Part shown: one piece after another, positions 1,922-54,151 of the stretch
Layout: the number at the start of each line of letters is the position of its first letter
How positions within the stretch are numbered: position 1 is the stretch's first letter
Source: an uncultured Opitutaceae bacterium
GTDB lineage: Bacteria > Verrucomicrobiota > Verrucomicrobiia > Opitutales > Opitutaceae
Assembly: GCA_903929355.1 (NCBI GenBank)
Contig: CAIYUN010000072.1
Location: forward strand, 62,001-126,000
Reading direction: 5' to 3'
Length of the DNA stretch: 64,000 bases
Program-made: the position numbers and the translations under genes
Notes under the pieces: model-generated
The model's input: only the letters and a program-made list of their open reading frames with translations
What the model was told of the DNA's origin: nothing
The model's database searches: none

Positions 1922-2974
1922 ATGAAAATCATCACCCCTGCCCGTCTGCGTTGCCTCGGCCTGCTTTTTACGCTCGCCATTCCCGCCGGCTCCATCCGTG
2001 CCGCTGACGCTCCCGCCACCCCTTCGCCCGCTCCTGCCGTCACCCCCGCCGCGCCCGCCCCCGCGCCCGGCGGCCGTGGTGGTGGCGCGAGGGGCGGCCG
2101 CGGCCCCACCGGCGCGACTCCGCCCGGCCCGCCCGCACCCGTGCCGGCGGCGGTCGCCATCTCCCGCCCCACCGCCGCCGAGCTGGCCCGGATCAACGCC
2201 GCGGTGGAACAGTTCATCGCCACCGACACCTCCGCCACCAAGCCGTTGCTGGAAAAATACCGGTCCCTGCTCGTGGTCCAGCCGCCCCGCGCCAACAGCG
2301 CCATCGCCCCGTCGCTTAGCCAGGGGTTCATGACCAAGCACAACAGCAACCTTGAGGTCGCCAAACAGGGCGACGTGGACATCCTGTTCCTCGGCGACTC
2401 CATCACCGATTTCTGGCGCACCGCCGGCAACGGCGACAACCCCGCCAAGGCCGGCAAGGCCGTGTTTGAGGAATACTACGGCACCCTCAAAACCGCCAAC
2501 TTCGGCATCTCCGGCGACAGCACCCAGGGCGTGCTCTGGCGGCTGATCAACGGCGAGGGCCAGGGGTTCCAGCCCAAGGTGGTCATGCTCATGATCGGCA
2601 CCAACAACGCCGCCAGCAACAGCATCCCCAACAACACCCCCGCCGAGATCGCCGAGGGCGTGGGGGCCATCGTGCTGGAGCTGCGCAAGGATTTCCCCGC
2701 CGCCCGGATTCTCCTGCTGGGCATTTTCCCGCGCAATGCGCCCGACAGCACCGCCCGCCGGGCCGCGCTCGCGGTCAACCCCATCATCGCCCGGCTCGAC
2801 GACCGGGAGCATGTGTTCTACCTGGACATCGGCGCCAAGTTTCTCGACGCCAATGGCGTCATCCAGCCGGACATCATGGACGACCAGCTTCATCCCACGG
2901 CTAAGGGCTACCGCATCTGGGCCGAGGCCGTGAAGGAGCCCCTGGCCAACCTGCTGAAGGGCGTCGCGCCGTAG
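1922..2974 (+). CDS. Secreted SGNH/GDSL-family hydrolase (PAF-acetylhydrolase-like)
   Basis: A 350-residue protein starting at the ATG at 1922; an earlier in-frame TTG at 1892 would add ten residues ahead of a normal signal peptide (MKIITPARLRCLGLLFTLA). After the signal comes a Pro/Ala/Gly-rich low-complexity linker (about 30-80), then a catalytic domain with all SGNH blocks: FLGDSITDFW (Ser160), NFGISGDST, MIGTNNA and DQLHPTAKGY (Asp321, His324). Such enzymes are esterases or sugar deacetylases; the substrate is unknown. The last 31 codons lie inside a 231-bp tandem duplication, so a second copy of the gene tail follows immediately. Confidence 0.88.
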   Translation: MKIITPARLRCLGLLFTLAIPAGSIRAADAPATPSPAPAVTPAAPAPAPGGRGGGARGGRGPTGATPPGPPAPVPAAVAISRPTAAELARINAAVEQFIATDTSATKPLLEKYRSLLVVQPPRANSAIAPSLSQGFMTKHNSNLEVAKQGDVDILFLGDSITDFWRTAGNGDNPAKAGKAVFEEYYGTLKTANFGISGDSTQGVLWRLINGEGQGFQPKVVMLMIGTNNAASNSIPNNTPAEIAEGVGAIVLELRKDFPAARILLLGIFPRNAPDSTARRAALAVNPIIARLDDREHVFYLDIGAKFLDANGVIQPDIMDDQLHPTAKGYRIWAEAVKEPLANLLKGVAP

Positions 2975-3114
2975 ACCCCAGCCCTCCAATCCGGTTTGGC
3001 CACAAAGAAGCACAAAAAACGTCTTTGGCTCCGGCGAAAGTCTCCCGCGCGCCTATAGGCGCGACGCAGGGACACGCCGATACGCAGGATTCTTGTGCCT
3101 TTTTGTGGCCAAAT
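2884..3114. repeat. 231-bp tandem duplication, unit 1 (gene 3' end plus family A element)
   Basis: The unit starts in the last 31 codons of the SGNH hydrolase and runs through the stop and a complete family A element (2996-3114). It is repeated directly, with no spacer, at 3115-3345. By eye the two units differ at about seven positions. Confidence 0.92.
2996..3114. repeat. Family A palindromic element, copy 2
   Basis: Starts TTGGCCACAAAGAAGCACAA, ends TTTTTGTGGCCAAAT, and has the perfect 16-bp core palindrome CGCGCCTATAGGCGCG in the middle. It lies directly behind the hydrolase stop codon and forms the second half of duplication unit 1. Confidence 0.85.
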
Positions 3115-3205
3115 CCAGCTTCATTCCACGGCTAAGGGCTACCGCATCTGGGCCGAGGCCGTGAAGGAGCCCCTGGCCAACCTGCTGAAGGGCACCGCGC
3201 CGTAG
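3115..3205 (+). pseudogene. Duplicated 3' fragment of the SGNH hydrolase gene
   Basis: A 30-codon tail of the hydrolase (QLH, then STAKGYRIWAEAVKEPLANL, ending KGTAP and TAG) without a start. It is offset exactly 231 bp from the true gene end. Pro became Ser in the DxxHP block and Val became Thr near the end. It is a by-product of the tandem duplication and is not expected to be translated. Confidence 0.9.
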
Positions 3206-3345
3206 GCCCCAGCCTTCCAATCCGGTTTGGCCACAAAGAACCACAAAAAACGTCTCTGGCTCCGGCGAAAGTCTCCCGCGCGCCTATAGGCGCGACGCAG
3301 GGACACGCCGATACGCAGGATTCTTGTGCCTTTTTGTGGCCAAAT
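3115..3345. repeat. 231-bp tandem duplication, unit 2
   Basis: Second unit of the direct duplication that starts at 2884. It contains the dead hydrolase tail (3115-3205) and family A copy 3 (3227-3345), whose sequence from the core palindrome to the end is identical to copy 2 by eye. Confidence 0.92.
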
Positions 3346-7652: not shown

Positions 7653-7743
7653 GGTTCTTGGTTCTTGGTTCTTGGTTCTTGGTTCTTGGTTCTTGGTTCT
7701 TGGTTCTTGGTTCTTGGTTCTTGGTTCTTGGTTCTTGGTTCTT
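7653..7743. repeat. Perfect 13-copy GGTTCTT tandem repeat
   Basis: Thirteen uninterrupted copies of the heptamer GGTTCTT, followed by one decayed copy (GGTTCCG). It lies between the convergent 3' ends of pyruvate kinase and a PIN toxin. It is the purest form of the family E unit seen, in degenerate inverted arms, at 20985, 24146, 37277 and 39833. Confidence 0.97.
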
Positions 7744-7774
7744 GGTTCCGGCTCCTACCCCCACTTCCGGAATA

Positions 7775-14675: not shown

Positions 14676-14915
14676 GCCGACCGGGGTCGGCGACCCTGGC
14701 TACAGAATGAGCCCGCCTGCGGGTTGACACCCGCCCATCCTGCGAAAGATTACCCCTCCCGCAGATCATTCTTCCGCACTCCGCCGGGCGGACGCCTCGG
14801 AGAGGCGTCCCTACCTTCAACCTTTCATCCTTTCAACCCTTCCGCCTTCCCTCCTTCGCTAAAGCTTCGGAGGGCACGCAAGCCTTCCGCACTCCGCACT
14901 CCGCACTCCGCCTTT
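14676..14915. repeat. Clustered hairpins and short repeats (families H, F and J)
   Basis: The 292-bp gap before the CobW gene holds GCCGACCGGGGTCGGC (14676-14691), the family H hairpin GGACGCCTC-GGA-GAGGCGTCC (14790-14810) followed by CTACC, inverted family F units (CCTTCAACCTTTCATCCTTT, 14813 onward), a short J-like piece, and GCACTCC three times just before the start codon. No gene is seen. Confidence 0.75.
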
Positions 14916-14919
14916 CCCC

Positions 14920-16362
14920 ATGTCCACCGACGCCCCCATTCCTGTCACCGTCCTCACCGGGTTTCTCGGCGCGGGCAAGACCACGCTCCTGAACCGCATC
15001 CTCACCGGCCAGCACGGGAAGAAGCTCGCGGTCATTGAAAACGAGTTCGGCGAGGTCGGAGTGGATCACCAACTGGTCATCTCCGGCGAGGAGGAGATTT
15101 TCGAGATGAACAACGGCTGCATCTGCTGCTCCGTCCGCGGCGACCTGATCCGCATCCTCGGCCGGCTGCTCAAACGCAAGGACCGCCTCGACGGCATCCT
15201 GATCGAGACCACCGGCCTCGCCGACCCCGGGCCCGTCGCCCAGACCTTTTTCACCGACGAGGAAATGAAGGACCGCTTCCGCCTCGACAGCATCGTGACC
15301 GTGGTGGACGCAAAGCACATCTGGCTGCACCTCGACGATTCACCCGAGGCGCGCAAGCAGATCGCCTTCGCCGACGTGCTGATCCTCAACAAGACCGACC
15401 TCGTGCCGCCCACCGAGCTGGACCGGCTGGAGTCGAGGATCCGGCACATGAACGCCGCCACGAAAATCATTCGGACGCAAAACTGTGACGTGCCGCTCGC
15501 CGCCGTGCTCGACGTGGGTGGTTTCAACCTTTCCCGCGCCACCGGTCTCGACCCCAAGTTTCTCGAGCCCACTTATCCGTTTGAATGGGCCGGCGCCTAC
15601 CCGCTCCCCGCCGGCGCGGTCACGCTCGCGATCGGCCACCCCCCGGGGGAGGACGGTCACGACCATCCTCACTCGCATGACCACGACGAGGGACACGAAC
15701 ACCATCACCACCACGACCATGCGGAGAACGAGCTCGATGTCGTGATCATGCCGGTCGCCGCACCGCCCGCCGGAGACTTTGGGTCGCACGCAGGCCTGGC
15801 CGCCATCGCTTCAGCAACCGCGGCGGCCGTGCTGGTCTTCTCCGGCTGGGAGAACAAGGTGGCTGACGGCGAAGCGGTCGTCCCCGGCGGGACGTTGCAC
15901 CGGCTGTTGCTTAAGGAGGGCTGTGGTAACTTTCCGCTCACCCTCCCCCACCCCGGACACTTCCTCGTCTTTGAGGGCTGCGGTGAGCACCCACTGCATC
16001 TCCAGGTGGGGGGAGAAAACATCCGACCGGTCTGGCAGCGCGATTTCGCCCACACCCATTCCCACGAGGACGATGTCACCTCCATCGGGATCACCACCCC
16101 CGGCGAACTCGACCCCAAGAAGCTCAACGCCTGGATCAGTGAACTGCTCCGCGTCAAGGGGGCCGATCTCTACCGGACCAAGGGCGTGCTGAGCGTGAAA
16201 GGCAGCAACCAGCGCCTGGTCTTCCAGGGCATCCATATGTTGTTCGACGCCAAATTTGACCGCGCCTGGGGCGACGACCCGCGCACCAACACCCTGGTCT
16301 TCATCGGTAAAAACCTCGACCGCGCCGCGCTCAACGAGGGGTTCAACTCGTGCCTGACCTGA
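14920..16362 (+). CDS. CobW/COG0523-family GTPase, putative zinc metallochaperone
   Basis: A 480-residue cytoplasmic GTPase that would load metal onto client proteins. Visible are Walker [11 protein letters not shown] (13-22), [10 protein letters not shown], the metal-binding CxCC motif GCICC (Cys67, 69, 70), Walker B-like ETTGLADP and the guanine motif NKTDL. A long His/Asp-rich run (about 245-265) sits before the CobW C-terminal domain and is probably a metal buffer. The adjacent WD40 gene follows on the same strand after 94 bp. Zinc is the best guess; cobalt or others cannot be excluded. Confidence 0.9.
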
Positions 16363-16456: not shown

Positions 16457-17761
16457 ATGAACCTCACCAAACACTGGGCGGTGGCGCTGGATGACTATGT
16501 CATTGACCTGGCCTGGTCGCCCGACGGCGCCACGCTCGCCGCCGCGAGCGCGGCGGGGCCGGTGCATCTCCTCGCCACGACCGATGGCACCACCCGGCAC
16601 GCGCTGCCCGGCCATGCAAACGGCACGAATGCCCTGGCGTGGATGAAATCAGAAGTCAGACGTCAGAGGTCAGACGTCAGCGATCAGAAGCCGGCATCCA
16701 GTCCATTAGCCCTAAATTCGGGTCCGGCGGCAATGTCTGATCCCTGGCCTCTGACCTCTGACATCTGTCTGCTCGCCACCGGCGGCCAGGATGGCGCAGT
16801 GAAGTTCTGGGACGCCACTAACGGCCAGCACACGGCCACCGTCCGTCTCGGAGCCGCGGCCGTCGAGCATCTCGCCTGGAGGCCGAATCAGAGGTCAGAC
16901 GTCAGAGGTCAGACATCAGAGGAAAGAGGGCAGAGGAAGGAGTCCGAAGGCCGAAATCAGAGGTCAGAGGTCAGAGGTCAGGGGGCAGATGCCGGAAGCC
17001 AGAAGCCGGGAGCCGGAGGACTGGTGCCTGAAACGAGGGGCGCCGAACTGACTTCTGACCTCTGGCCTCTGACCTCTGGTTCCCTCCTCGCCGCCGCCGC
17101 CGGCCGCACCCTGGCCTTTCTCCGGCCGGACGGCTCGCTCGCGCACACCTGCCCGCCGGCCCCAAAGACCATCTCGGCCCTGGCTTGGCAACCCGAGGGC
17201 GGGTGTGTCGCCGCCGCGGCCTTTGGCGGCGTGCGACTCTGGGATGCCGACGATTTCATCCTGCAAAAGGAGCTGCCCTACGCCAACGGCATCCTCGCCC
17301 TGGTCTGGTCGCCCGACGGCCGCTGGCTCGTCTCCGGCAACCAGGATCCCAGTGTCCATCTCTGGTTGCCCGAGAAAAATGACGAGCTGCAGATGAGCGG
17401 TTATGAGAGCAAGGTGCCAACGGTCGCGTTCGACCGTTCCTCGCGCTGGCTCGCCACCGCCGGCGGCCACGATGCCTCGGTCTGGGATTGCGCCGGCACC
17501 GGCCCGGAAGGCCGCGCGCCGTCGATGCTGCCGCACGACGGGAAGGTTTGCGCGGTCGCGTTTCAGCGCGCGCACGGCCTGCTGGCCACCGCCTCGGCCG
17601 ACGGGGTGGTCATGTTATGGAGTCCCGAGCGCGCGCAACCCCTGCGTGCGACCATCCGCCTGCCCGCTCCCGCCACCAAGATCGCCTGGTCGCCCGACGA
17701 CCATCTGCTCGCCCTCGGCACGGAGCGCGGCGCGGTCCATGTGCTCCGGTGCGAGGCGTAG
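16457..17761 (+). CDS. WD40-repeat protein carrying two in-frame palindromic repeat insertions
   Basis: A 434-residue beta-propeller protein, probably a scaffold. WD-type units are LAWSPDGATLAAASAAG, LLATGGQDGAVKFWD, ALAWQPEGGCVAAAAFGG with VRLWD, LVWSPDGRWLVSGNQD, VAFQRAHGLLATASADG with VMLWS, and IAWSPDDHLLALGTERG. Two units are interrupted by repeat DNA translated in frame: residues about 65-105 and about 144-208 are Arg/Gln/Ser/Glu-rich. Both lie in the same place of consecutive units, between the ALAW/HLAW strand and the LLA strand. Without them the protein would be near 330 residues, normal for a propeller. No signal peptide is seen. Confidence 0.85.
   Translation: MNLTKHWAVALDDYVIDLAWSPDGATLAAASAAGPVHLLATTDGTTRHALPGHANGTNALAWMKSEVRRQRSDVSDQKPASSPLALNSGPAAMSDPWPLTSDICLLATGGQDGAVKFWDATNGQHTATVRLGAAAVEHLAWRPNQRSDVRGQTSEERGQRKESEGRNQRSEVRGQGADAGSQKPGAGGLVPETRGAELTSDLWPLTSGSLLAAAAGRTLAFLRPDGSLAHTCPPAPKTISALAWQPEGGCVAAAAFGGVRLWDADDFILQKELPYANGILALVWSPDGRWLVSGNQDPSVHLWLPEKNDELQMSGYESKVPTVAFDRSSRWLATAGGHDASVWDCAGTGPEGRAPSMLPHDGKVCAVAFQRAHGLLATASADGVVMLWSPERAQPLRATIRLPAPATKIAWSPDDHLLALGTERGAVHVLRCEA
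16649..16770. repeat. Family D element inside the WD40 gene, insertion 1
   Basis: Left arm TCAGAAGTCAGACGTCAGAG and right arm CCTCTGACCTCTGACATCTG, inverted relative to each other, around about 55 bp. The reading frame stays open across the element. Confidence 0.9.
16888..17079. repeat. Family D element inside the WD40 gene, insertion 2
   Basis: Left arm TCAGAGGTCAGACGTCAGAG, extended by further CAGAGG units to about 16982. Right arm is ACTTCTGACCTCTGGCCTCT with further CTGACCTCTG. It is larger than insertion 1 and also open in frame. Confidence 0.9.
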
Positions 17762-22716: not shown

Positions 22717-22790
22717 TAACCACTAATGCACACTAATTTACACTAATCCAATCCTCAGAATTAGTGTTCATCAGTGTCCATTAGTGGTTC
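22717..22790. repeat. Family B hairpin, copy 1 (ACTAAT / ATTAGTG units)
   Basis: TAACCACTAATGCACACTAA followed by further ACTAAT, a short loop with ATCCTCAG, then the inverted ATTAGTGTTC and GTCCATTAGTGGTT. It folds into one long stem. It lies in the 444-bp gap 22547-22990, which also has a family C arm (22570-22600) and a family H hairpin (22957-22977) but no gene. Confidence 0.9.
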
Positions 22791-25054: not shown

Positions 25055-25192
25055 TAACCACTAATAGGCACTAATTTGCACTATTCCGATCCTCAGAATT
25101 AGTGTCCATTAGTGGTTAATAACTCCGTCCTCCGTTTTCTCTGCTTGCCGCGCCCTCTTGCCGCGCCTTGGCGCAGCGAAGGCGGGTTCTTG
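25055..25192. repeat. Family B hairpin copy 2 and family J segment
   Basis: 25055-25120 repeats the family B hairpin (TAACCACTAATAGGCACTAA, loop GATCCTCAG, ATTAGTGTCCATTAGTGGTT). 25141-25192 is a shortened family J piece (CTTGCCGCGCC twice, then GCGAAGGCGGG). The 193-bp gap contains nothing else. Confidence 0.88.
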
Positions 25193-41067: not shown

Positions 41068-41290
41068 GTTCTTAGTTCTTAGTTCTTAGTTCTTGGTTCT
41101 TGGTGATTGGCTTGTCGCGCCGTCTTGCCGCGCCATAGCGAAGCGGCGGCGGGAGCTTTAGCGAAGGCGGATGCTTGGTGCATGGAGTAGAGTTGTAAGC
41201 TTGAAGGTGAAGGTTGAAAGACGGCTCAACCAGCCTCCCACGCTCCCAGGGACCCTTCAACCGCTAAACCTTTCAACCCTTCAACCCCGC
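41068..41290. repeat. Mixed repeat cluster (E units, J segment, F element)
   Basis: 41070-41104 TTCTTAGTTC/TTCTTGG units, 41109-41180 a long family J segment almost identical to 10951-11029, and 41200-41287 a family F element with arms GAAGGTGAAGGTTGAAAGAC and AACCTTTCAACCCTTCAACC. It fills the gap between the AroB-like and NeuB-like genes. Confidence 0.85.
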
Positions 41291-42657: not shown

Positions 42658-43371
42658 TCAGAGGCAGGTAAACCCTCCATCCACCACGATGGTCTGGCCG
42701 GTGAGATAGGTGTTGGCCTCGGAGACCAGGAAGGCGGCCGTCCGCGCGAGCTCGGCGGGCTGGGCCAGGCGGCGCAGGGGGATGGCACCGGCCAGGGCCG
42801 CGATGACCTCCGGCGGGTTGTTCTGCCGGGTGAGCGCGGTATCCACATAACCAGGCGCGAGGGAATTCACCAGGACGCCGGCCGGACCATACTCGACTGC
42901 CGCGCTGCGGGTGAGCGCGTTGAGGGCGGCCTTGGTCATCGAGTAGGCGGCGCGGCGCTCCTTGGTGACGAGGCTGAAAATGCTGCTGACATTGAGAATG
43001 CGCCCCCAGCCGCGCGCCGCCATGCCGGGCGCCAGGGCCTGGATTAGTCGTAGCGGGGCGGAGAGGTTGGTCTGCACCATCGCCGCCCAGCCGGCGGTCT
43101 CGATTTCGGGGAGCGCGCGGAGCACGTTGATGCCGGCATTGTTGACGAGGATATCGACGGCGAGGCCTGAATTGGCCGCCACCCAGGCCTCAATGGAGGC
43201 GGGGCTGGCCAGGTCGAGCTCGGACCGGGTGGGCGCAACGACGCGGCAGCCGGCAGAAGTCAGCTCGGCGGCGATGGCGGCACCGATGCCGCGCGCCCCG
43301 CCCGTCACGAGGGCGGTGCGCGGGGCGCTGGCGCGCGGTTCTTCGTTCTTGGTGCTTGGTGCTTGGTTCAT
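42658..43371 (-). CDS. Short-chain dehydrogenase/reductase
   Basis: A 237-residue classical SDR. TALVTGGARGIGAAIAAELT is the NAD(P)-binding start, followed by NNAGINVLRALPE, the catalytic Ser in LNVSSIFSLVT and YSMTKAALNALTRSAAVEYG (Tyr-x3-Lys), then LAPGYVDTALTR. It is probably NADP(H)-dependent, judged only from the Arg after the Gly motif. Placed between the AroB-like and ThDP enzymes, it may reduce their keto product. Confidence 0.85.
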   Translation of the reverse strand: MNQAPSTKNEEPRASAPRTALVTGGARGIGAAIAAELTSAGCRVVAPTRSELDLASPASIEAWVAANSGLAVDILVNNAGINVLRALPEIETAGWAAMVQTNLSAPLRLIQALAPGMAARGWGRILNVSSIFSLVTKERRAAYSMTKAALNALTRSAAVEYGPAGVLVNSLAPGYVDTALTRQNNPPEVIAALAGAIPLRRLAQPAELARTAAFLVSEANTYLTGQTIVVDGGFTCL

Positions 43372-43455
43372 GGGGCGCGGGGCGCGGTGCTTAGTTCTTG
43401 AATCCTAGTTCTTGGCTTATCGCGCCGGAGCTTCGGCGCGACAAACCAAGAACAG
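43338..43455. repeat. Family E element overlapping the SDR start
   Basis: Left part GGTTCTTCGTTCTTGGTGCT with GGTGCTTGGTTCATGGGGC, then GGTGCTTAGTTCTTGAATCC and TAGTTCTTGGCTTATCGCGC; right arm CGACAAACCAAGAACAGC with a small hairpin GCGCCGGAGCTTCGGCGC before it. The SDR start codon (43371) lies in the left arm, so its first residues (MNQAPSTKNEEPRA) are repeat-encoded. Confidence 0.82.
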
Positions 43456-52758: not shown

Positions 52759-53916
52759 TCAGCCAGCCCAGGGCAGGCCGGCGGTGTGTGCGGCAGTGGT
52801 GTAATCGGCGATCTGTGCAGCCGTCAGCGCCCGGGCGGACCCGGGATCCGCCAAACCCTGCCGATACCATGCGACCGTGCGCGCGATCGTCGGCGCGAAG
52901 CCCCACACCGGCTGCCATTGCAGGAAGTGAAACGCCTTGTCGGTGGTGAGATTCAGGAGGCGGGCCTCGTGGACCGCCCGGGGGTCGCTCCGGTCCTCCC
53001 AGCGGCCGGGCCAGTGCTCGATCAGCTCCTGCACGAGCGCGGCCACGGTGCGGTTGGAGGTAAGCGCCGGGCCGAAGTTGAAGGCCGAGGTGTAGGCGGA
53101 CGGCGGAAAATGAAACGCCGCCGGCCGGCCGGCCGAGAGGGCGGCCCCCAGCCAGAGGTAACCGCTCAGCGGCTCGAGAACATGCTGCCACGGCCGGGTC
53201 GCCGTCTTGTTGCGCACGGGGATGGTCTCGCCACGTTGGAGGGCGCGGATGCAGTCGGGCACAAGGCGGTCGGCCGCCCAGTCGCCGCCGCCGATGACGT
53301 TGCCTGCACGGGCCGAGGCAAGCCGGACTGGGGAGTCGGGCGTGGAAAAGAACGACCGGCGATACGCGGCAATCGCGATCTCGGCCGCGCCCTTGGAGGA
53401 GCTGTAGGGGTCGTGGCCGCCCAGCGGGTCCTCCTCGCGGTAGCTGTGGACCCACTCCTTGTTTTCGTAACACTTGTCGGTGGTGATGGCCACGACCGCG
53501 CAAGGGCGGCCCGCCAGCCGGACCGCCTCCAGCACGTTGACCGTGCCCAGGACGTTGGTCGCGTAGGTCTCGACCGGCTGTTCGTAGGACAACCGCACGA
53601 GCGATTGCGCGGCCAGATGGAAAATGAAATCCGGCCGCAACTCGTCCACCACGCGGCGCACGGTCGGAAGATCACGGATGTCGCCCTCCACATGGCGCAG
53701 CCGCCCGGCCAGCCCGAGCTGGTCGAACAGTGCCGGCGAGGTCGGCGGCGGGAGCGCGAGGCCCGTGACGTCCGCGCCCAGCGCGAGCAGCCATTCGGCC
53801 AGCCAGGCGCCCTTGAACCCGGTGTGGCCGGTCACCAAGACCCGCTTGCCGCGGTAAACTCCGCCGAAGACGGCGGAGGTTGAAGGGTTGAGGGGTTGAT
53901 GGGTTGAGGGGAGCAC
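52759..53916 (-). CDS. rfbG: CDP-glucose 4,6-dehydratase
   Basis: A 385-residue extended SDR making CDP-4-keto-6-deoxyglucose. VYRGKRVLVTGHTGFKGAWL is the family N-terminus; LAAQSLVRLSYEQPVETYAT, VVAITTDKCYENKEWVHSYR with YSSSKGAAEIAI, RAGNVIGGGDWAADRLVPDC and a C-terminal ALTSNRTVAALVQELIEHWP complete the match. No ATG precedes the conserved VFGGVYRGKR. The nearest start is GTG at 53916, so the first 15 residues (LPSTHQPLNPSTS) come from family F repeat DNA. It lies 12 bp upstream of rfbH. Confidence 0.93.
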   Translation of the reverse strand: MLPSTHQPLNPSTSAVFGGVYRGKRVLVTGHTGFKGAWLAEWLLALGADVTGLALPPPTSPALFDQLGLAGRLRHVEGDIRDLPTVRRVVDELRPDFIFHLAAQSLVRLSYEQPVETYATNVLGTVNVLEAVRLAGRPCAVVAITTDKCYENKEWVHSYREEDPLGGHDPYSSSKGAAEIAIAAYRRSFFSTPDSPVRLASARAGNVIGGGDWAADRLVPDCIRALQRGETIPVRNKTATRPWQHVLEPLSGYLWLGAALSAGRPAAFHFPPSAYTSAFNFGPALTSNRTVAALVQELIEHWPGRWEDRSDPRAVHEARLLNLTTDKAFHFLQWQPVWGFAPTIARTVAWYRQGLADPGSARALTAAQIADYTTAAHTAGLPWAG

Positions 53917-54133
53917 TCGGAGGGTTGAAGGGTTGAAGGGTTGAGAGGTTGAAGGGGGAACTCGGAAGGTTGAGGGGTTGAGGTGTTGAGAGGTTGATGG
54001 GGGAACGGAGGGGAGGGTTGTTCTTGATTCTTGGTTCTTGGTTCTTCGTGCCTGGTTTTAGTCCATTCAACGTTTCAACCCTTCATCCGGCCGCCCCATC
54101 CTTTCAACCTTTCATCCCCTCATCCTTTCAACC
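53878..54133. repeat. Large family F inverted element with an E core
   Basis: Left arm 53878-54000 has more than ten GGTTGAGGG/GGTTGAAGG units. The right arm (54061-54133) is inverted: CATTCAACGTTTCAACCCTT and CCTTTCAACCTTTCATCCCC. Between them 54017-54055 carries TTCTTGGTTCTTGG family E units. It spans the gap from the rfbG start to the rfbF stop. Confidence 0.88.
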
Positions 54134-54151
54134 GGCGGCGCTGGCCGCCGC

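Follow-up and report, generated by a model that had tools for sequence, protein, structure and literature searches.

The window analysed here is a 64,000-nucleotide stretch from an uncultured Opitutaceae bacterium (contig CAIYUN010000072.1), and our subject is a gene within it that encodes a WD40 beta-propeller and carries two long, repeat-built inserts in consecutive blades. The initial annotation, made from the sequence alone, had read these as two palindromic elements with CAGAGGT-type arms, both open in frame and both placed at the structurally equivalent loop. The features of the locus are listed below (pTM, predicted template modelling score).

16457..17761, + strand: WD40 beta-propeller gene, 434 amino acids, eight blade repeats (blades counted by eye); open reading frame, Pfam WD40 match, structure pTM 0.82
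16643..16771, + strand: insert 1, a 43-residue loop in the first hairpin of blade 2; boundaries from alignment with an insert-free ortholog; period 7 and inverted repeat each at p 0.005
16651..16688, + strand: left arm of insert 1, CAGAGGT-type heptamers; inverted pair, 84% complementary to 16736..16773
16736..16773, + strand: right arm of insert 1, ACCTCTG-type heptamers, read as DPWPLTSD; inverted pair; gene frame without a stop, a stop in each other frame
16772..16879, + strand: stretch separating the two inserts, made up of the conserved rest of blade 2 plus the first strand of blade 3; alignment and predicted structure
16880..17089, + strand: insert 2, a 70-residue loop in the first hairpin of blade 3; boundaries from alignment; period 7 and inverted repeat each at p 0.005
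16885..17014, + strand: left side of insert 2, two CAGAGGT arrays and then CCGGAAG-type heptamers; inverted-repeat and tandem-repeat scans
17048..17088, + strand: right arm of insert 2, ACCTCTG-type heptamers, read as LTSDLWPLTSG; inverted pair and reading frame
14920..16362, + strand: neighbouring CobW-type GTPase gene directly upstream, given for context only; open reading frame and Pfam

The gene product matches WD40 (PF00400) plus other propeller models in Pfam. Insert 1 corresponds to residues 63-105 and insert 2 to residues 142-211, each lying between strands 1 and 2 of its blade. Compared with an insert-free reference ortholog (L048; loops and genomes carry our own L and G handles where they must be told apart), whose loops have 7 and 5 residues, the protein gains 36 and 65 residues, close to the 40-65 residues first proposed. 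The p value of both loops, for period 7 and for inverted repeats alike, is the floor of a test with 200 mononucleotide shuffles, and among periods 5-12 in the window, period 7 scores at least 0.8 at 180 positions and every other period at 0. The inverted arms of insert 2 are 16948-16988 and 17048-17088, which are 80% complementary, with a further left array at 16885-16919. Two in-frame inverted heptamer elements within a single open frame are thus confirmed. One occupies the first-hairpin tip of blade 2 and the other that of blade 3, a preference that extends across the family beyond the window. Rfam at the gathering threshold, run on the whole window, reports one tRNA and nothing else.

The window protein was modelled with AlphaFold2 (42 sequences), giving a pTM of 0.82. 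The body mostly exceeds a predicted local distance difference test score (pLDDT) of 90, and the inserts, which separate strands 1 and 2 in their respective blades, are strandless and mostly score 40-60. The model of an insert-free ortholog has the same strand order (mean pLDDT 95, pTM 0.90), and a Foldseek search of the PDB ranks ordinary WD40 propellers highest. The propeller fold is predicted to be intact and both insert loops to be disordered.

Heptamer arrays in the genome and their reading frames

The genome to which the window belongs (3.80 Mb in 91 contigs) was searched for the heptamer arms. There are 34 exact matches to CAGAGGTCAGAGGTCAG and 291 matches to its 18-base form with up to two mismatches, against 0 for the reversed control. 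The arms are therefore dispersed throughout the genome and not confined to the WD40 gene. The first 100 of the 291 matches were clustered together with the exact-match places, and 48 places were examined, with the two WD40 elements scored as one. Single arrays make up 42 of the 48 and the two-armed form the other 6 (5 in a stricter scan); the palindromic form originally described thus holds for both WD40 inserts, whereas it is the exception in the genome at large. When the WD40 elements are counted apart, CAGAGGT comes first and ACCTCTG second in 7/7 two-armed elements; for the WD40 gene this order was read from the positions, as the script had merged both elements into one place of opposite order. 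Six more two-armed elements in ortholog loops follow the same order.

Seven of the 48 places lie inside Pfam-matched genes: queG twice, lpxK, gcvP, a TPR membrane protein, a glycosyltransferase and the WD40 gene itself. The glycosyltransferase (L024) was counted as genic despite missing the flank score, having domains on both sides. One place in the pheA region (L019) was left uncertain, its array being upstream of the first domain; 15 places have no spanning frame, and 25 have one without good coding evidence. Treating every spanning open reading frame as genic was rejected: 33 of the 48 places have such a frame, and only 9 pass our own coding-score threshold on both flanks. L229 and L230 were dropped from the genic set because they lack a Pfam domain and look like antisense frames.

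Two of the genic cases can be described further. The queG gene (L013, C57:63625-64965 of the same genome) carries two heptamer inserts. At the first site the filling differs among five genus-mates, a comparison that concerns the filling and not its repeat nature; at the second, the tail was read in 17 of 20 loci, and of these the window's genome alone has a heptamer filling. In gcvP, a single reverse heptamer array (L236, C87:44868-44906) lies in frame between the two Pfam domains and is read as PLTSDLWPLTS, a wording shared with the WD40 gene. In 19 other genomes of the family the heptamer has 0 to 82 matches, with controls of 0 in 14 genomes and 2-5 in 5; in G134 and G157 the control count exceeds the heptamer count.

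Since 7 equals 1 modulo 3, a CAGAGGT array yields an identical codon cycle in each frame, namely the seven codons QRSEVRG, without a stop in any of the three; the reverse array brings TGA once per 21 bases. This asymmetry is visible in 44 arms at places outside the genic set, where 128/132 sense frames and 17/132 antisense frames are open. Whole elements are not unusually open, because the 39 places that did not score as genic have on average 2.9 open frames out of 6, versus 3.35 in shuffles; only the sense strand of the array is. For the 12 reverse arms in WD40 loops, a stop occurs in the gene frame in 0/12 and in each other frame in 9/12, and the critical codon of coding reverse arms is TGG or CGN (by eye). 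The informative point is that the clearing of stops is limited, as a rule, to the gene frame, together with the conserved body downstream.

The window holds other tandem repeats of short units. A different heptamer family is represented at 7653-7748 by 13.7 perfect copies of GGTTCTT with no sign of decay, with related arrays at 41068-41101, 43337-43373 and 54020-54057. Octamer arrays also occur as inverted pairs, since an array of 8-base units (GGTTGAAG) at 53871-54140 has a 74-base inverted partner, 73% complementary.

Loop variation among the orthologs

WD40 orthologs are present in 196 of 252 genomes of the family. We analysed 109 loci, including the window's own, from among these genomes; they were taken mostly for their lowest E-values, so close relatives are favoured. 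A loop was called long at 14 residues or more, a threshold that overlooks short remnants. Across 107-109 copies, the first hairpin of blade 2 ranges over 4-53 residues and that of blade 3 over 5-70, the maximum being the window's own, while the other first hairpins have 6-14 (blade 1), 7-30 (blade 4) and 6-7 residues (blades 5-8). Short loops, of 4-13 residues in blade 2 and 5-13 in blade 3, are found in 66/107 and 48/108 copies, respectively. The blade-3 loop of L056 is wrongly scored as 5 residues and is absent from the long loops, its 37-residue insert sitting at the loop edge. L060, another piece of the gene in L055, was excluded.

Insertions of at least 4 residues outside the hairpins of blades 1-4 occur in only three further rows of the 109, and none is in the hairpins of blades 5-8: in L047 and L127 the linker that follows blade 1 is longer by 6 residues, and in L059, a partial and distant copy, the linkers that follow blades 5 and 7 are longer by 6 and 9. 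A second collection of 80 loci, 16 of them new and mostly from records of Opitutaceae, Opitutae or Verrucomicrobia, agrees on the loop restriction. CobW motifs were seen near 17 of 80 ortholog loci within the flank examined, which is too short a flank to judge synteny.

The long loops were scored as repeat-like if period 7 or an inverted repeat reached p<=0.01 against mononucleotide shuffles, with 111 control segments taken from the conserved half of these genes. Blades 2 and 3 together have 101 long loops, and 62 of them are repeat-like, against 0/111 control segments. By blade the counts are 30/41 (blade 2) and 32/60 (blade 3), the window's two included, with 0/2 in blade 1 and 2/8 in blade 4. 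At least one repeat-like loop in blades 2-3 is found in 41/107 copies, and both loops are repeat-like in 21.

Sorted by eye, the loop contents comprise CAGAGGT heptamers, GACAGG-, CTCAGCT- and AAATCCA-type heptamers, and palindromes starting with GTAG and ending with CTAC. The GTAG-type sequence GTAGCCGGGGTCGNTGACCCCGG has 140 copies (up to two mismatches) in the carrier genome G007, with a control of 0. A second, GTAGGGCGCGTTATCCCTAACGCGCC (up to three mismatches), has 51 copies in G196, 46 in G035 and 6-10 in G194, G157 and G240, again with controls of 0. Because heptamers and genome-dispersed GTAG-type dimers both fill them, the two loops have served repeat families that are unrelated to each other, and the proposal of a single element family in these positions does not stand: the ortholog inserts come from several. 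The initial annotation had allowed that orthologs with the same segments conserved as protein would speak against it; in the orthologs compared, the loops do not hold the same segments conserved in this way.

Closely related pairs show how quickly the loops can differ. Between L087 and L096 the body differs by a nonsynonymous rate (dN) of 0.012 and a synonymous rate (dS) of 0.15, and the blade-2 loop has 37 versus 8 residues; between L136 and L138 (dN 0.03, dS 0.30) the blade-3 loop has 34 versus 5. Turnover is not constant, as L086 and L081 have equal loops at dS 0.24. On a tree built without the loops, from which L057 and L059 were excluded (cut by a stop, or partial), the loop class changes at least 26 times in blade 2 and 42 times in blade 3, these counts being rough because the tree is weak. 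The body of the window gene, compared with seven orthologs, has a dN/dS of about 0.17-0.22 at a dS of 0.75-1.2 (near saturation), and outside the loops the gene is under purifying selection.

The reading that we prefer, and regard as very probable, is that dispersed repeats become protein: they land in genes, and copies that are open and in frame survive where the two loops tolerate them, with no need for targeting. Tandem heptamer arrays (CAGAGGT and its variants), in some cases two of them facing each other as inverted arms with a spacer between, would multiply in the genome. Genic copies would survive solely if the frame is kept, no stop is introduced and the site is one where the fold tolerates added residues; in this WD40 propeller the tolerant sites would be the first-hairpin tips of blades 2 and 3. 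The insert would be read as a flexible hydrophilic loop, with the propeller still folding, and the heptamer unit may itself aid survival, as its CAGAGGT strand is free of stops in every frame. The grounds for this reading are the dispersal of the repeats, their in-frame position, the restriction to two loops, the mixture of families, the restriction of stop clearing to the gene frame and the purifying selection on the body. We infer translation of the inserts, tolerance as the cause, and the copying process. The inserts in queG, lpxK and gcvP suggest that tolerance is general, and the interpretation first offered for the window is supported.

Several observations weigh against this reading. 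The inserts would be translated, judging by their open frame, but freedom from in-frame stops is part of what defines any open gene. The short-loop partner in the pair L087/L096 is no clean empty site, as its loop sequence differs too. Only 29 of 104 inner branches of the tree are well supported, and gain and loss are indistinguishable on it. The sequence GTAGCCGGGGTCGNTGACCCCGG is scarce in four other carrier genomes, with 1-4 copies in G235, G236, G237 and G079 (controls 0). There is no heptamer array near the Y1_Tnp genes at four loci of the window's genome, within 2.6-3.3 kb around them, and on this basis a link of the heptamers to a RAYT transposase was rejected. Lastly, 39 of the 101 long loops have no repeat signal at p<=0.01; these may be decayed inserts or ordinary loops.

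The alternative that survives best, doubtful as we consider it, is that each loop received one ancestral insertion, which was inherited and whose heptamers were then rewritten in place by slippage and exchange. The genus-mates L034 and L087 have identical bases up to the insert point and different heptamers after it, and L080, L081 and L086 have related inserts in common. PMC4679880 also cites an idea by which heptamers are prone to slippage, a 7-base length favouring slippage of the polymerase. Against this, GTAG-type dimers, other palindromes and heptamers in one loop cannot be derived from each other by slippage, and short loops are interspersed on the tree with the many class changes given above, weak as that tree is. 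A further proposal, which is unlikely in our view, would make the heptamer elements a distinct class of dispersing DNA with a 7-base unit adapted to life in genes: with one strand free of stops in every frame, a copy could land in coding DNA in any phase and persist, and permissive loops would be long-term reservoirs from which repeats evolve.

Quite improbable is the view that the loops are functional, perhaps in binding, and that selection favours diversity in them, for which the repeats would supply the material. It would account for two neighbouring loops changing so extremely in sequence and length while the body is conserved, but most copies are short in blade 2 (66/107) and nearly half in blade 3 (48/108), and the queG, lpxK and gcvP inserts suggest a general tolerance instead.

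Targeted insertion, in which the elements recognise a DNA site recurring in WD40 repeats and hence arrive at an equal place in consecutive blades, is very unlikely. The candidate site TGGNNNCC (W-x-P) does stand at the hairpin start in 92/107 copies in blade 2 and 70/108 in blade 3, but the window gene itself lacks it in blade 2, where the residues are W-M-K. It also stands at blades 1, 5 and 8 (86/107, 103/109 and 101/109), at 5 and 8 no less often than at 2 and 3; long loops there number 2, 0 and 0, and blade 4 has long loops in 8/108 copies with the site in 0/108. Targeting by a shared DNA motif was rejected on the first of these counts, the motif being present at blades 1, 5 and 8 as well. 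Tolerance is favoured over targeting because blades 5 and 8 share TGGNNNCC without long loops, and because the donors are mixed, with the unrelated heptamers and GTAG dimers occupying the same loops.

That these are ordinary fast-evolving disordered loops, repetitive in look through biased composition, is scarcely credible: many of the 39 signal-free loops are rich in Ala, Pro and Ser, but the 62 repeat-like ones exceed shuffles of their own composition where 0/111 controls do, and the 291 matches of the window heptamer and up to 140 copies per carrier genome of GTAG-type loop sequences stand against reversed controls of 0, so that this view is refuted for the window gene and may hold for part of the unclassified loops.

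With survival by tolerance as the preferred reading, the roughly 100 copies amount to a natural insertion scan of one protein, mapping which propeller hairpins accept up to 65 extra residues and which were never seen to, and with that the points at which a fold has room for foreign sequence. Many donors of the loop inserts are traceable repeats, and the natural pairs of long and short loops make it testable whether inserts are neutral, harmful or useful.

Other repeats of the window and comparison with known systems

Further repeats in the window include a 231-bp unit in tandem duplication at 2884-3345 (96% match), which contains the inverted pair TTTGGCCACAAAG, and two related palindromes of ACACTAAT/ATTAGTG units at 22718-22789 and 25055-25118. 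Copies of the repetitive extragenic palindrome (REP) GGTAGGGACGCCTCTCCGAGGCGTCC, with 0-4 mismatches, lie at 14790, 22957, 42540, 42568, 46918 and 46946. The same REP, as GGTAGGGACGCC..., flanks a Y1 transposase gene at L224, one of the four Y1_Tnp loci of the genome, and the two are likely a REP-transposase pair.

We take the O. terrae of the 2013 report on REPs to be Opitutus terrae. Degenerate tandem heptamers dispersed in a genome are classically described as short tandemly repeated repetitive (STRR) sequences.

The likeness first drawn to the Rickettsia palindromic elements (RPEs) is borne out in organisation. As described in the portions of PMC2229807 used here, RPEs are short palindromic repeats of 105-146 bp with terminal inverted repeats, found between genes and also in frame in conserved protein genes, where they are apparently tolerated. 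The window elements are likewise short and dispersed in multiple copies, some of which keep the frame of a conserved protein gene. Measured between the outer ends of the arms, insert 1 spans 123 bp and insert 2 141 bp (inner left array) or 204 bp (outer), yet most places examined in the genome (42/48) are single arrays. There are differences too: the lineage here is Opitutaceae-like, the arms are degenerate tandem heptamers, and two-armed and single-array forms coexist. Unlike RPEs, the inserts of this one protein come from several unrelated families that occupy the same loops.

REPs have been reported inside genes, those of the GTAG type in the largest number in O. terrae, where uvrA is among the genes with a double insertion; the recB genes of two Xanthomonas species have different REPs at about the same site (PMC3733652, BMC Genomics 2013). 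The words 'heptamer' and 'WD40' have 0 occurrences in the main text of that report. The window inserts are not GTAG REPs, because the 20-40 bp hairpin ending in GTAG is missing and a period of 7 is present instead; some ortholog loops do have it, as GTAG-type dimers. The link of GTAG REPs to a RAYT-type transposase does not extend to the heptamers at the four Y1_Tnp loci.

Tandem heptamers are known from other bacteria. Heptamer repeats are over-represented among simple repeats in many bacterial genomes, the G-rich ones studied being under-represented in coding regions (PMC4692102, in the part used), and in cyanobacteria, Xanthomonas and Beggiatoaceae, tandem heptanucleotide repeats are described as dispersed and mostly intergenic (PMC4692102 and PMC4679880). 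The arrays described here are similarly degenerate and dispersed. They differ in that some are in-frame protein inserts and some copies form inverted pairs. As to their location, 7 of the 48 places are in Pfam-matched genes, 1 is uncertain, 15 have no spanning frame and 25 have a frame of doubtful coding.

In-frame palindromic repeats are already known, both as RPEs in Rickettsia and as GTAG REPs, which are most numerous in O. terrae. Coding heptamer inserts are not reported in the titles or abstract openings found in the open-licence literature, and judged by the papers searched, two things are new: coding inserts made of heptamer arrays, and the reuse of the same loops by unrelated families. 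With them, heptamer arrays join RPEs and REPs among the palindromic repeats that code for protein.
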